Part shown: in pieces, positions 1,205 through 7,326 of the stretch
How positions within the stretch are numbered: position 1 is the stretch's first letter
How the letters are laid out: the number at the start of each line of letters is the position of its first letter
DNA from: an uncultured bacterium
GTDB taxonomy: Bacteria; Planctomycetota; UBA1135; UBA2386
Length of the DNA: 7,327 nucleotides
Direction: 5' to 3'
Assembly: GCA_938003515.1 (NCBI GenBank)
Contig: CALKYL010000120.1
Coordinates: forward strand, 1-7,327
Made by a program: the position numbers and the translations under genes
Notes under the pieces: model-generated
The model's database searches: none
What the model saw: only the letters and a program-made list of their open reading frames with translations
What the model was told of the DNA's origin: nothing

Positions 1205-2131
1205 TCACTTCTGCTTCGCGGCCTCGACGAGGTCCGACCAGGCCTTCTTGGCCCGTTCGAACTGCGGACCGGACTCGTCGGCGTAGCGCTCCATCAGCGC
1301 GTCGTAGGCCTGCTGCGCGAGCTTCGCGTCCTTGTCCGCGCTCGCCGCCCGCAGCACCTGCTGCCAGAAGGTGCCGGCCATCGCCGCGCTCGGCACCCTG
1401 CCGGCCCTGGCGATCGCGACCAGCTTCTGCTGCGTCTCCTCCATGCCGACCTCGCGCGCGCTGCGCAGGATGTCGCCGACCTCGGCGTCGACCAGCTTCT
1501 GCGCGACCAGCTTCTTGTCGGCTTCGCCGAGGCCCTTCACGGCGTCGGCGCGCTGCTGGATCTCTTCGGCCGGGATCAGGTCGAGCTCGAGCTCCGCGAG
1601 GAACAGCTCCTTCTCCTCTTCGGCGGTGCGGCCCTTCTTGTCGCGCAGCGCCATCAGGCTCTTGGTCTGCGCGTGCGTCTCACGGAACGCTTCGACCGAG
1701 CGGGACGGCTTGGTCAGCACGTTGCCCTCGGCGTCCATGAAGCACAGCGACGGGAAGCCGCGGAAGCCCTTGTCCTGCAGCAGCGTCGGGTACGGCTCGT
1801 CCTCGACCCGCGACGTGTTGTGCAGGAACAACACGACGGACTTGGCGAACTCGGGGAACTCCTTGTCGGAGAGCGGACCGCTCTCCAGTGCGTTGCACGG
1901 CGGTCAATTCGCGTAGCTGCGCGTGAAGTAGGCGAAGATCAGCTTGCCGCTCTCCTTCGCCTGCTCCCGCGCCGCGTCGTAGTCGGTGATCCAGGGAGCC
2001 TTCTGGAAGACGTCCTTGGCGAGCTTCTCGTCGCGCAGCTCCTTGAGTTCGTCCTGGCTGGGGGTCCGGCGGCCCTGGGCCGGGAGCAGCGCGGCCAGGG
2101 CGGCTGCGACCGGTAGCAGTTTGATGATCAT
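1205..2131 (-). CDS. Exported thioredoxin-fold selenoprotein with a UxxC (U-P-P-C) redox motif
   Basis: This is one continuous 308-residue frame if the single internal TGA (1904-1906) is read as selenocysteine 76. Residues 1-20 (MIIKLLPVAAALAALLPAQG) look like a Sec signal peptide, so the protein probably works in the periplasm. Residues about 45-150 form a thioredoxin-like domain: a helix, the strand GKLIFAYFTRSYAN, then U76-P-P-C79, a helix, the strand SVVLFLHN, and the segment FRGFPSLCFMDAEGNVL, whose FP fits the cis-Pro loop of thioredoxins. Residues about 160-308 are helical and charged, possibly repeat-like, with no recognised family. The likely role is thiol-disulfide or peroxide chemistry; the substrate is unknown. 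The ATG at 2129-2131 is chosen because it places the signal peptide at the N-terminus. An in-frame ATG at 2159-2161 would add ten residues. Neither has a good Shine-Dalgarno. The gene follows uvrC by 121 bp. A conventional gene caller would split it into two fragments (1904-2194 and 1205-1834). Confidence 0.88.
1867..1887 (-). promoter_or_regulatory. Bacterial SECIS hairpin directing selenocysteine insertion
   Basis: In the mRNA, 17 nt after the UGA, GGAGAGC (1886-1880) pairs perfectly with GCUCUCC (1874-1868) around a GGUCC loop (1879-1875). A U-G wobble (1887 with 1867) can extend the stem to 8 bp. Bacterial SECIS elements lie inside the coding region just after the UGA and carry G at the first positions of the apical loop. 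The E. coli fdhF SECIS presents GGUC in its loop, which is also seen here. The loop lies 24 nt from the UGA. The bulged U of the fdhF stem is absent. SelB would be the binding partner; it is not encoded in this window. Confidence 0.8.
1904..1906 (-). other. Recoded TGA: selenocysteine codon (Sec76)
   Basis: The minus-strand codons around the site read TAC GCG AAT TGA CCG CCG TGC AAC. The TGA replaces the first Cys of a CxxC motif whose second Cys is intact. Thioredoxin-like sequence lies in the same frame on both sides, with no length change or frame shift. Neighbouring genes, and this gene's own end (1205-1207), use TGA as a true stop, so the recoding is local and not a genome-wide code change. 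Confidence 0.88.
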
Positions 2132-2252
2132 GGTTCGGTATCGGGGAGCGACGTGCTCCATGGTCCAAGGGTAGGGGCGCACCCGGCCCGGCACACGCCG
2201 TTACCAACGTCAGACCTCCTCGCCGGCGCGCGCCGCGGGACCGGTCGGGGCC

Positions 2253-2498
2253 TCACCGGGCGCCGCCGCCGTGCTCGCCGCCGTCCTCACCACCGCCCGC
2301 GCCGCCGCCCTGCTCGCCGGTCCCGCCGCCCTGCAGGCGCGCGTGCACGGCCTCGGCGACCGCCGCGGGCAGGCCCGGCATCGCGCGCAGCTCGTCGAGG
2401 CTCGCCTTCTGCAGGGCCGACAGCGAGCCGAAGTGCCGCAGCAGCGCGCGCCGCCGGGTCGGCCCGACGCCGGGCACGTCGTCGAGCGCGCTGGGCAC
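2253..2498 (-). CDS. uvrC: UvrC C-terminal fragment: (HhH)2 DNA-binding domain with Gly-rich tail
   Basis: The sequence [19 protein letters not shown], followed by [22 protein letters not shown] and an alpha-helix, is the tandem helix-hairpin-helix domain that ends UvrC and binds the bubble-like DNA at the incision site. The two hairpins are PGVGP and PGLPA. After the HhH domain comes a tail of about 25 residues made mainly of Gly, Glu and His, which most UvrC proteins lack. This piece is in the same frame as the N-terminal fragment. The GTG at 2498 is only the first possible start in the open frame; it lies within the conserved domain and is not a credible start. Confidence 0.65.
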
Positions 2499-3351
2499 GC
2501 GCGCCGAGGCCGGCTGACCCGCTCGTTCGAGCCGAAGCGCCGCGCCCGCGCGGCCCCGGGTCCGCCCCCCCGGGCCGGACCTCCCCTTCGGCGCTCGCGC
2601 ACCGGTCGCCGCCGACGCCCTTCAGCCGGCTCTTCGCCAGGCCGCAGACCAGGACCTCGCCGGTGAGCCCCAGCTCGGCCAGCGCCTTCTCGGCGGCGCC
2701 GAGCTGGCCGCGGCCGCCGTCGACGACCAGCAGGTCGGGCAATTCCTCGTCGTCCCGCTCGAGGCACAGCGTCAGGCTGCGGCGCACGGCCTCCTGCATC
2801 GCCGCGAAGTCGTCGCCTGCGTTCGCCGGCGAGATGCGGAAGCGCCGGTAGTGGGCCTTGTGCGGCGCGCCGTCGACGAAGCAGACCCGCGACGCGACGG
2901 TGCTGGTGCCCTGGATCGTCGCCACGTCGAGGCAGTGCAGCCGCTCGGGCGCCTCGCCGCCCTCCCGTTCGAGGCCGAGGCCGCGCGCGAGCCGCTCGGC
3001 CGCCTCGCGCCGCCGCGCCTCGGCGTCGACCGCGACGCGGTCGGCGAGCTCGGCGTCCTGCATGGCGAGCGTCAGGTGCTTCTTGCGGTCGCCGCGCTGC
3101 GGCACCGCCAGCTCGACGCGCGCGCCGCGCTTGTGCTCGAGCCACGCGCGCAGCATCGCCGGCTCGGCCGGCATGGCCGGCACCAGCACCGCGCGCGGCA
3201 CGTAGCGGTCGCCCTCGTAGAGCCGCGCCAGCACGTCGGCGAGCAGCAGCTCGTCGGGCAGCTCGCTCCGGAAGCGGTGCCGCCGGCAGTGCTCGAGCGC
3301 GCCGCCGCGGAAGGTCAGGAACGCGACCGTGACCTCGTCACCGAGCCCGCG
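2287..3351 (-). CDS. uvrC: UvrC middle fragment: RNase H-like 5'-incision nuclease core
   Basis: This frame has convincing UvrC sequence from [16 protein letters not shown] (just below 3351) to [14 protein letters not shown] (about 2600). It carries the family's carboxylates: Asp in [17 protein letters not shown], the double Asp in [10 protein letters not shown], and Asp in [13 protein letters not shown]. These correspond to the Asp triad of the E. coli UvrC C-terminal nuclease. In most UvrC proteins the first site reads DxSH; here it is DVATIQ, so the Ser-His is not conserved. Below about 2570, after a run of seven G in the coding strand, the frame encodes low-complexity Arg/Ala/Gly residues without UvrC character. 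No start codon belongs to this piece, so it is only meaningful as part of the disrupted gene. Confidence 0.65.
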
Positions 3352-4049
3352 CCGAGCTGCTCCTTGATCGTCTGCGCGCGCTCGAACTCGAGCGCCGCGG
3401 CCGCCGCGGCCATGCGCGTCTCGAGCGCGCGCACCAGCGGCGCGATGTCGCCGCGCAGGATGCGCGCGGCCTCGTCGAGCAGCGCGTCGTATTCCTCGCG
3501 CGTGATCAGGTCGACGCACGGCGCCGGACAGCGGCCGATCTGGTGCTTGATGCACGGCCGCGAACGGTTGCGGAACACGGCGTCGTTGCAGTCGCGCAGC
3601 GGCACGACCTTGTGCAGGAGGCGCAGCGTGCGCCGCGCGGCCTTCGCCGACGCGAACGGCCCGAAGTAGGCCGCGCCGTCGTCGCGCCGCCGCCGCACGA
3701 AGCGGAACCACGGCCAGGGCTCCTTGCGGTCGAGGCGCAGCAGCAGGAACGCCTTGTCGTCCTTGAGCTTGATGTTGTAGCGCGGCTTGTGCTTCTTGAT
3801 CACCGTGTTCTCGAGCAGCAGCGCCTCCTGCTCGGTCGCGGTGGCGATGAACTCGACGTCGCTGGCCTCGTCGTCGAGGAAGCGCAGCAGGTAGCGGCCG
3901 TCGCCGCCGGGCTTGAGGTAGCTGCGCACGCGCGCGCGCAGGTCGGCGGCCTTGCCGACGTAGAGCGCCCGGCCGTCCGCGTCGTGGAACAGGTAGACCC
4001 CGGGACCGGTCGGGAAGCGGGCGACCTTGTCGGCGATGCGGGGGTCCAT
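3315..4049 (-). CDS. uvrC: UvrC N-terminal fragment: GIY-YIG nuclease, Fe-S cysteines, UVR domain
   Basis: This frame encodes genuine UvrC for about 232 residues, down to about 3354, then 12 unrelated residues rich in Ser/Arg before a TGA at 3315-3317. Residues 16-34 hold the GIY-YIG signature (PGVYLF, then YVGKA), with the catalytic-type Tyr19, Arg42 in RARVRSY and Glu80 in LLLENTVIKKHKPRYN, which is the metal-binding Glu of the family. Four cysteines spaced C-x11-C-x7-C-x3-C (LRDC, RPCIKHQIGRCPAPC) match the [4Fe-4S] site known in E. coli UvrC. Residues about 209-232 (AAAAALEFERAQTIKEQL) are the start of the UVR domain that contacts UvrB. If translated alone it would retain the 3'-incision nuclease but lose the 5'-incision core. 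It starts 91 bp below the stop of the AI-2E-type gene. Confidence 0.7.
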   Translation of the reverse strand: MDPRIADKVARFPTGPGVYLFHDADGRALYVGKAADLRARVRSYLKPGGDGRYLLRFLDDEASDVEFIATATEQEALLLENTVIKKHKPRYNIKLKDDKAFLLLRLDRKEPWPWFRFVRRRRDDGAAYFGPFASAKAARRTLRLLHKVVPLRDCNDAVFRNRSRPCIKHQIGRCPAPCVDLITREEYDALLDEAARILRGDIAPLVRALETRMAAAAAALEFERAQTIKEQLGAGSVTRSRSRS

Positions 4050-4096
4050 GCGGGCTGTCGAGACGATGCGACACCGCCGCGCCCGCGACAAGCGCG

Positions 4097-6423: not shown

Positions 6424-7326
6424 CTACAGGAGCTCCATGTCCGCCTGCTCGAGCCGGTAGACCTCGTCGCGGATCTGCGCGGCGAGCTCGAAGTCGAGGT
6501 TCTTCGCGGCGGCCATCATCTCCGTGCGCAGCTGCTTGACGTGCCGCAGGAGGTCCTGGTGGCTCGCGAAGGCGCGCTGGCCGACCGCCGCGGTCGGGGC
6601 GGCCGCGCCCTGCCGGGGCGCCCCCTTCGCCTTGCCCCGGCCCTTGCCGCGGCCCTTCTTGCCCCTGTTGCCCGCCGCGTCGCCGTCCCCGTCGTCGTCG
6701 AGCACGACCTGCAGCAGGTCGCGCACCGGCTTGACGATCGTCTTCGGTTCGATGCCGTGCGCCTCGTTGTGCGCCTGCTGCTTGGCGCGGCGGCGCTCCA
6801 TCTCGGCGAGCGCGCCCTCGATCGAGTCGGTGCGTCTGTCGGCGTACAGGATCACCCGGCCCTCCACGTTGCGCGCCGCGCGGCCGCAGGTCTGGATCAG
6901 CGACGTCTTGCTGCGCAGGTAGCCCTCCTTGTCGGCGTCGAGCACCGCGACGAGCGCGACCTCGGGGATGTCGAGGCCCTCGCGCAGCAGGTTGATGCCG
7001 ACCAGGACGTCAAAGACGCCGAGCCGCAGGTCCCGGATCAGCGCCGTGCGCTCGATCGAGTCGATGTCGCTGTGCATGTAGCGCACCTTGATGCCGAGGT
7101 CGGCGAGGTAGTCGGCGAGCTCCTCCGCCGAGCGCTTGGTCAGCGTCGTGATCAGGACGCGCTCGCGCCGCGCGACGCGGGCGCGCACCTCGCCGACGAC
7201 GTCGTCGACCTGGCCCCGCGCCGGCCGCACCTCGACGGGCGGGTCGATCAGCCCGGTCGGACGCACGACCAGTTCGACGACCCGAACGTCGCTGTGCTGC
7301 AGCTCGTAGGCGCCGGGCGTCGCCGA
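6424..7326 (-). CDS. uvrB: UvrB, excinuclease ABC subunit B, C-terminal 300 residues (5' end outside the window)
   Basis: The open frame runs from the right edge to a TAG at 6424-6426. UvrB is the damage-verifying helicase-like subunit that loads UvrC; full proteins are about 660-700 residues, so somewhat less than half is seen. The fragment starts inside SATPGAYEL, then reads [14 protein letters not shown] and shows the helicase C-terminal motifs: [55 protein letters not shown] and QTCGRAARN (motif VI; usually QTIGRAARN). The last 35 residues ([20 protein letters not shown], ending MELL) are the UVR domain that binds UvrC. Between helicase and UVR domains lies an insert of about 45 residues, first Asp/Gly-rich and then Lys/Arg/Gly-rich. 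The gene is intact over the visible part, in contrast to uvrC. Confidence 0.96.

Follow-up and report, generated by a model that had tools for sequence, protein, structure and literature searches.

Gene organization of the locus

The window analysed here is a stretch of 7,327 nucleotides (positions 1 to 7,327 of contig CALKYL010000120.1, assembly GCA_938003515.1) from an uncultured bacterium of the Planctomycetota (UBA1135; UBA2386). On its minus strand lies a complete coding sequence (1205..2131), which starts with ATG at 2131, ends with a terminal TGA at 1205-1207 and encodes 308 residues when its single in-frame TGA (1904-1906, minus strand; residue 76) is read as selenocysteine (U). The motif around this codon is SYAN-U-PPC, and Cys79, the second residue of the U-x-x-C, is encoded by TGC at 1895-1897 (minus strand). 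Relatives align with the gene over nearly its full length. An earlier note on this DNA had given the coordinates, the length, the position of U76 and the motif exactly, and had left unstated that the gene is on the minus strand. As that note had anticipated, ordinary gene finding breaks the gene into two pieces, one of 96 aa ending at the TGA (1904-2194, minus strand) and one of 209 aa starting at a GTG after the TGA (1205-1834, minus strand), the latter being the database protein P0002. The GC-rich window holds 20 TGA codons with 60 open codons on both sides, the one at residue 76 included, and the open frame alone is therefore weak evidence. The residue-76 TGA stands above chance because of the homology on both sides of it, the TGA at the same column and the Cys in relatives, and a hairpin downstream.

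Several other features were noticed in the window. A uvrC homolog (2253-4091, minus strand) is split over several frames, with a GIY-YIG part at 3318-4091 and a helix-hairpin-helix part at 2253-2498, which may reflect assembly indels or decay; the matching frame beside the family gene in two related loci, L007 and L008, is open to the ends of those loci. A 380-residue open frame without a Pfam match occupies 3-1142 on the plus strand, and a frame resembling it sits near the family gene in another locus, L001 (3712-5895, minus strand). Scanning the window with Rfam gave only an ASdes TB sRNA match (7131-7191, plus strand; E 0.3), which lies inside the uvrB region, is below threshold (21.4 bits; gathering score, 40) and is probably due to chance.

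Domain composition of the encoded protein

Residues 1-18 (2078..2131, minus strand), followed by Gln19-Gly20, form a probable signal peptide. A18 and Q19, at the putative cleavage site, are each conserved at 90% or more in A3, an alignment of 52 chosen sequences that all carry TGA or Cys at the column of codon 76. In a crude hydrophobicity test, a hydrophobic N-terminal stretch was detected in 71 of 79 TGA copies (two of the 81 copies described below were excluded for runs of N). The signal peptide proposed in the earlier note is plausible both by eye and by this test.

A thioredoxin-fold domain is predicted at about residues 44-165 (1637..2002, minus strand). PF13899 (Thioredoxin_7) passes its cut-off in the window protein (34.4 versus 27 bits) and is matched by 51 of the 52 A3 members at E 0.01, while PF13098 stays below its cut-off in the window protein (17.3 versus 27 bits) and is matched by 30 of the 52 at E 0.01 (best 2e-7). 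Searching Pfam revealed no PDZ domain in the window protein. Both Cys79 and Pro127 are invariant in A3, and Pro127 (GF-P; codon 1751-1753, minus strand) sits where a thioredoxin fold would have its cis-proline. Because A3 contains only TGA and Cys sequences, its invariant columns are uninformative for the degenerate paralogs of the family. The structure model predicts a thioredoxin fold. Its closest matches among solved structures are DsbH and, scoring similarly, the DsbD C-terminal domain, with other thioredoxins and PDI-like proteins close behind in the list. The long helical C-terminal region claimed earlier is borne out by a confident model in which about residues 170-306 (1214..1624, minus strand) consist of helices only. 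This domain has only weak matches, many of which are TPR domains, and it is perhaps TPR-like.

Relatives and the codon at position 76

A protein search returned 92 proteins, the window's own 209-aa fragment (P0002) included. As many as 83 of them begin after position 76, with the aligned query starting at residues 78 to 117. The remaining nine are full-length, with Cys at column 76 in seven, Ser in two (P0042 and P0059, with QSGPC and SPSPVC) and Trp in none, and a profile search added three further full-length database proteins, all with CxxC. Apart from "hypothetical protein", these two protein searches for relatives yielded no source name.

Genomes were then searched at three levels. At E 0.001, matches turned up in 32 of the 34 genomes from the family to which the nearest relative, G001, belongs; other thioredoxins are among the weak matches. 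A class-level search gave a match at E 1e-20 in 62 of 154 genomes. The codon at the column was counted in 98 rows, namely the window and 97 relatives, drawn from the family-search matches with E 3e-18 or better and the listed class matches. Family-search rows with a worse E value lay outside this sample, except L029-L033. L001-L003 were excluded because they duplicate the genes in L004, L006 and L010, and L062 (a duplicate of the second L013 copy), L027 and L029 (column missing) and L030-L033 (scores under 200; other thioredoxins, with CGWC) were dropped before the count. The codon is TGA in 81 rows, of which the window is one, TGC or TGT in 11, AAC in two, and GAA, AGC, TAC and TGG in one each. 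All 81 TGA rows have Cys at +3, and in 76 of them Pro directly precedes that Cys. CxxC is found in only four of the 17 non-TGA rows (four of the 11 Cys rows), the others having degenerate motifs, and the Cys-for-Sec exchange is therefore documented by few genomic copies and ten database proteins.

In a phylum draw of 392 genomes, with at most five candidates scored per genome, 115 had a profile match at E 1e-15, the weaker of which may be other thioredoxin proteins. By hand count, 120 of the 131 listed matches with E 1e-30 or better have exactly one stop, a TGA; four have a TGA and another stop, and seven have no stop. In 40 of 40 further copies, picked for having a TGA and coming from 39 genomes outside the class search, the TGA is at the same column. 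The second TGA of L163 and L167 is the expected protein end. At the codon level, the stretches of the gene on the two sides of the TGA are similarly conserved. The end of the gene lies within the retrieved stretch in 62 TGA copies, and 29 of these (the window gene and 28 others) end in TGA, indicating that TGA is also a real stop in these organisms.

These counts agree with the earlier note in placing the TGA at the first Cys of a CxxC motif (81 of 98 rows have TGA there, and seven of the nine full-length database relatives have Cys) and in describing thioredoxin sequence on both sides of it with the second Cys kept. Homologs interrupted by TGA, or with Cys at this position, were what that note had proposed to look for, and both kinds were found, the former in the 98 rows and the 40 further copies alike.

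A SECIS-like hairpin downstream of the TGA codon

In the window, the TGA is followed by a SECIS-like hairpin of bacterial type (1867..1887, minus strand) with an 8-bp stem and the 5-nt loop GGUCC (1875-1879); 16 nt separate the TGA from the stem and 24 nt the UGA from the loop. Its conservation was analysed in A1, a gapless alignment of the 60 columns after the TGA in the 81 TGA sequences, in which columns 20-27 pair with columns 33-40. In A1, 91.4% of the stem cells are paired, double changes occur in 49 cells against a shuffled mean of 12.2, and covariation reaches a score of 0.375, compared with 0.235 in shuffled alignments; none of 500 shuffles was as high for any of the three measures. 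Counted by stem pair, double changes affect four of eight, which is no excess (330 of 500 shuffles were as high). When the partner strand was slid along A1, pairing fell to 38-63%. The 17 non-TGA copies are at background, with 55.1% paired versus 54.4% in shuffles.

Because the hairpin region is coding, we also compared each copy with synonymous shuffles recoded with its own codon use. The TGA copies form 7.31 of eight pairs versus 4.81 +/- 0.15 in the shuffles, and 47 of the 81 have perfect stems versus a maximum of 7 in 500 shuffles. For the non-TGA copies the corresponding values are 4.41 versus 4.05 +/- 0.30 pairs, with a perfect stem in one of 17. This one is L120, which has TGG (Trp; 41-43) in place of the TGA at the Sec codon and yet a perfect 8/8 hairpin, and which may have lost Sec recently, contain an error or have some other explanation. 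In the fixed register, the 40 further copies form 5.73 of eight pairs versus 4.62 +/- 0.18, with perfect stems in seven of the 40 (shuffle maximum 3), a lower score that arises because many of them have a shifted stem. An any-register test (7-bp stem, 3-6 nt loop), defined after the fixed-register result had been seen, was then run on the three sets and detected such a stem in 63 of the 81 TGA copies (maximum of 300 shuffles, 17), 34 of the 40 further copies (maximum 10) and two of the 17 non-TGA copies (maximum 4). By this definition, 18 of the 81 and six of the 40 TGA copies have no 7-bp stem.

In 76 of 81 copies the second loop nucleotide is G, and in 68 the second and third read GU. Directly 3' of the UGA, the family thus has a hairpin whose small apical loop contains G, the loop feature being given as a criterion for bacterial SECIS elements in PMC1088965. 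For the 54 nt that follow the TGA, minimum free energy gave a modest mean z of -0.98, with z below -1.645 in 25 of the 81 TGA copies and also in two of the 11 Cys copies and two of the six other copies; this test is weak and was replaced by the pairing of one stated stem and the synonymous shuffles. Rfam SECIS_1 (RF00031) had no match in three genomes and passed its cut-off in none of 14 controls; we take this model to describe a non-bacterial type of element, and hence to be uninformative for the present family.

Selenocysteine machinery in related genomes

Genes for selenocysteine synthesis and insertion, which the earlier note had proposed to look for in the same genome, are frequent in the related genomes. 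Matches over cut-off were obtained for selB in 31 of 34 related genomes versus two of 14 controls, for selA in 30 of 34 versus one of 14, and for tRNA-Sec in 29 of 34 (27 of 32, plus G002 and G003), the controls reaching three of 14 at the threshold of the 32-genome search and five of 14 in the search that gave G002 and G003. In addition, selD was found in seven of eight related genomes versus two of 14 controls. All four parts are over cut-off in G003, G027, G029 and G030, four genomes with close UGA copies. In G001, the home of the closest relative, the tRNA-Sec match is below cut-off (45.8 versus 47 bits), and five of the 32 genomes have none at E 1e-9. G018 and G033 lack selA, and its matches in G002 and G025 do not reach the cut-off; the same shortfall affects selB in G017, G025 and G031, and selD had no match in G033; these gaps may reflect the incompleteness of metagenome-assembled genomes. 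Two further observations concern the machinery genes themselves: selA and selD are neighbours on contig C81 of G001, and SelD has one in-frame TGA in all seven matches (L121-L127).

Proposed function and alternative interpretations

Taken computationally, the family has a conserved UGA, Cys at the same position in some relatives, a hairpin under selection, a predicted thioredoxin fold and, in most related genomes tested, the selenocysteine machinery. From these sequence data we infer that the UGA at codon 76 is almost certainly decoded as selenocysteine. The product is very likely an exported thiol oxidoreductase, and a reductive direction, judged solely from the fold likeness in the models, is slightly favoured. 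As a whole, an exported, reductive UxxC thioredoxin containing selenocysteine is likely to be the best explanation of the locus. In the mechanism that we propose, the mRNA hairpin just 3' of the codon-76 UGA would recruit SelB with Sec-tRNA, and Sec would be inserted at the UGA instead of termination. The signal peptide would then export the protein to the envelope, its presumed site of action. In thioredoxins, the first residue of the motif is the attacking nucleophile. The selenolate of Sec76, as the N-terminal nucleophile of the UxxC, would thus attack client disulfides or oxidised thiols, Cys79 would resolve the mixed selenosulfide, and the oxidised Sec-Cys bond would be reduced in turn, most likely by a DsbD-type membrane reductase. 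The C-terminal helical domain would probably hold clients or partners. A DsbD_TM protein is present in all eight related genomes tested, but also in 10 of 14 controls.

A reductive role is suggested because the fold resembles that of DsbH, which NCBIfam calls a disulfide reductase; the C-terminal domain of DsbD is equally among the nearest folds, and the second motif Cys is retained in every one of the 81 TGA copies. A selenoprotein that acts as a peroxidase, an isomerase or a disulfide-forming oxidase is the alternative that survives best and is a serious, if minority, possibility, since UxxC by itself does not fix the direction of the reaction and several thioredoxin-fold selenoproteins are described as peroxiredoxin- or DsbA-like in the 2026 selenoprotein inventory (PMC13188914).

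The other alternatives concern the UGA itself. Databases in effect treat it as a real stop, with 83 of 92 entries beginning after it, and the downstream frame would then be a separate gene restarted at GTG or TTG. Such a product, however, would start partway through the thioredoxin fold, some full-length relatives have no stop there, and codon-level conservation before the TGA is like that after it; the selected hairpin would also go unexplained, and we consider this reading highly improbable. Just as improbable is a decoding of UGA in these organisms as one of the standard residues, such as Trp or Gly, through a code change or plain read-through. The TGG of L120, with its intact hairpin, fits that idea, but 29 TGA copies, the window gene among them, terminate in TGA, Cys prevails over Trp at the column (11 versus one of the 17 non-TGA copies; seven versus none of the nine database proteins), and selA, selB, selD and tRNA-Sec occur in most related genomes tested. 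Finally, the possibility that a TGC or TGT was misread during sequencing or assembly, or was mutated to TGA in a pseudogene, is practically negligible and is refuted at the family level by the same TGA in 80 other copies from many genomes and in 40 further ones and by a hairpin kept against synonymous change, although the uvrC homolog, split in the window and open in L007 and L008, means that the window may carry indels or decay.

Comparison with known families

No NCBIfam model passed its cut-off for the window protein or for the 52 A3 members. With the model of its nearest solved fold, DsbH of Chlamydia (PDB 2ju5; NF043050), the window protein scored 26.9 bits against a cut-off of 190. We know of no selenocysteine in DsbH, and the NF043050 model comprises 166 positions and thus has no helical domain of the size found here. 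In CnoX/YbbN a thioredoxin domain is followed by a helical repeat domain, an arrangement that the present protein may share. The Foldseek alignment with this chaperedoxin (PDB 3qou, 3qdn) covers 305 columns at low quality, with an rmsd of about 21 and a TM score of 0.24-0.25 relative to the query, and E. coli CnoX is cytoplasmic, whereas the present protein is probably exported.

Among selenoproteins, the 2026 inventory comprises 119 families or subfamilies, and its table contains near entries, none of them clearly matching (PMC13188914). The entry "Thiol:disulfide interchange protein" (PF13098, UxxC, WP_011366075.1) has in common with our family the thioredoxin fold, Sec as the first residue of the motif and a retained second Cys (PMC13188914). 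Set against the inventory's description, the window protein passes PF13899 and not PF13098, the family has a helical domain of ~140 residues, and TGA dominates over Cys in the copies found. Given that 30 of the 52 A3 members match PF13098, the family may be related to this entry. The Trx7/PDZ selenoprotein (NF041199) shows a weak local likeness before and at the motif (15.2 bits over residues 46-80 against a cut-off of 300 bits), which was seen in 42 of the 52 A3 members, but its motif in the inventory is CxxU in contrast to UxxC (PMC13188914).

By its description in the GOS survey, GOS_C is a hypothetical protein with UxxC and a thioredoxin-like fold, the same motif type and fold class as here (PMC2398784); its model, NF045500, is not among the 21 NCBIfam families matched by the 52 A3 members at E up to 0.1. 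The survey also describes "Trx-like 2" and "Trx-like 3", both with UxxC (PMC2398784). Going by table descriptions, these two groups or the PF13098 entry might include members of our family, and Trx-like 2 or 3 could include its marine members. Among the papers listed in literature searches on the phylum, the one that by title or abstract deals with its selenoproteins is PMC4807772. Its section on them details formate dehydrogenase and formylmethanofuran dehydrogenase and mentions no thioredoxin-like selenoprotein, all candidates being listed in its S9 table.

The family therefore looks like a new one within a known kind, the UxxC thioredoxin-fold selenoproteins, with the nearest inventory and GOS entries compared by description only. 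The suggestion in the earlier note that it may be undescribed holds up, as far as the NCBIfam cut-offs, the bare "hypothetical protein" names and the table of the inventory can tell. A common selenoprotein family has apparently been missed, with 83 of the 92 database relatives beginning after the Sec codon, and it was apparently overlooked because gene callers cut the gene at its active site. It adds to the little-cultured phylum Planctomycetota an enzyme that has Sec in most copies found and is probably extracytoplasmic, and it gives annotation pipelines a clear model to add.

Divergent paralogs

Copies with degenerate motifs were observed beside the UxxC and CxxC forms. The motifs CGAA, NPQC, EVGG, NPAC, CPSS, SPLA and YAAC occur in the second copy of L013, L015, L025, L060, L063, L064 and the first copy of L102, and these paralogs are possibly redox-dead. 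Another group, L065-L069, has neither TGA at the column nor the hairpin and shares H-[CH]-T-R-S-[FY]-x-P-C-G-T-S-I-R-C-E, that is, CxxS with an extra Cys. A speculative and, on the present sequences, rather unlikely extension of the proposed function is an extracytoplasmic selenium chaperedoxin, in which a UxxC thioredoxin with a TPR-like client-binding domain would hold and re-reduce oxidised exported proteins, the family having expanded within genomes into UxxC copies that are catalytic and paralogs that are redox-dead (NxxC, CxxA, CxxS, SxxA) with a holding function only. Genomes in which UGA, Cys and degenerate copies occur together provide a natural experiment on the advantage of Sec over Cys within a single protein. 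One genome, G021, has seven family matches (L014, L050, L051, L052 twice, L054 and L056); its two L052 copies adjoin, and a second TGA in L056 gives a short form of 151 residues.
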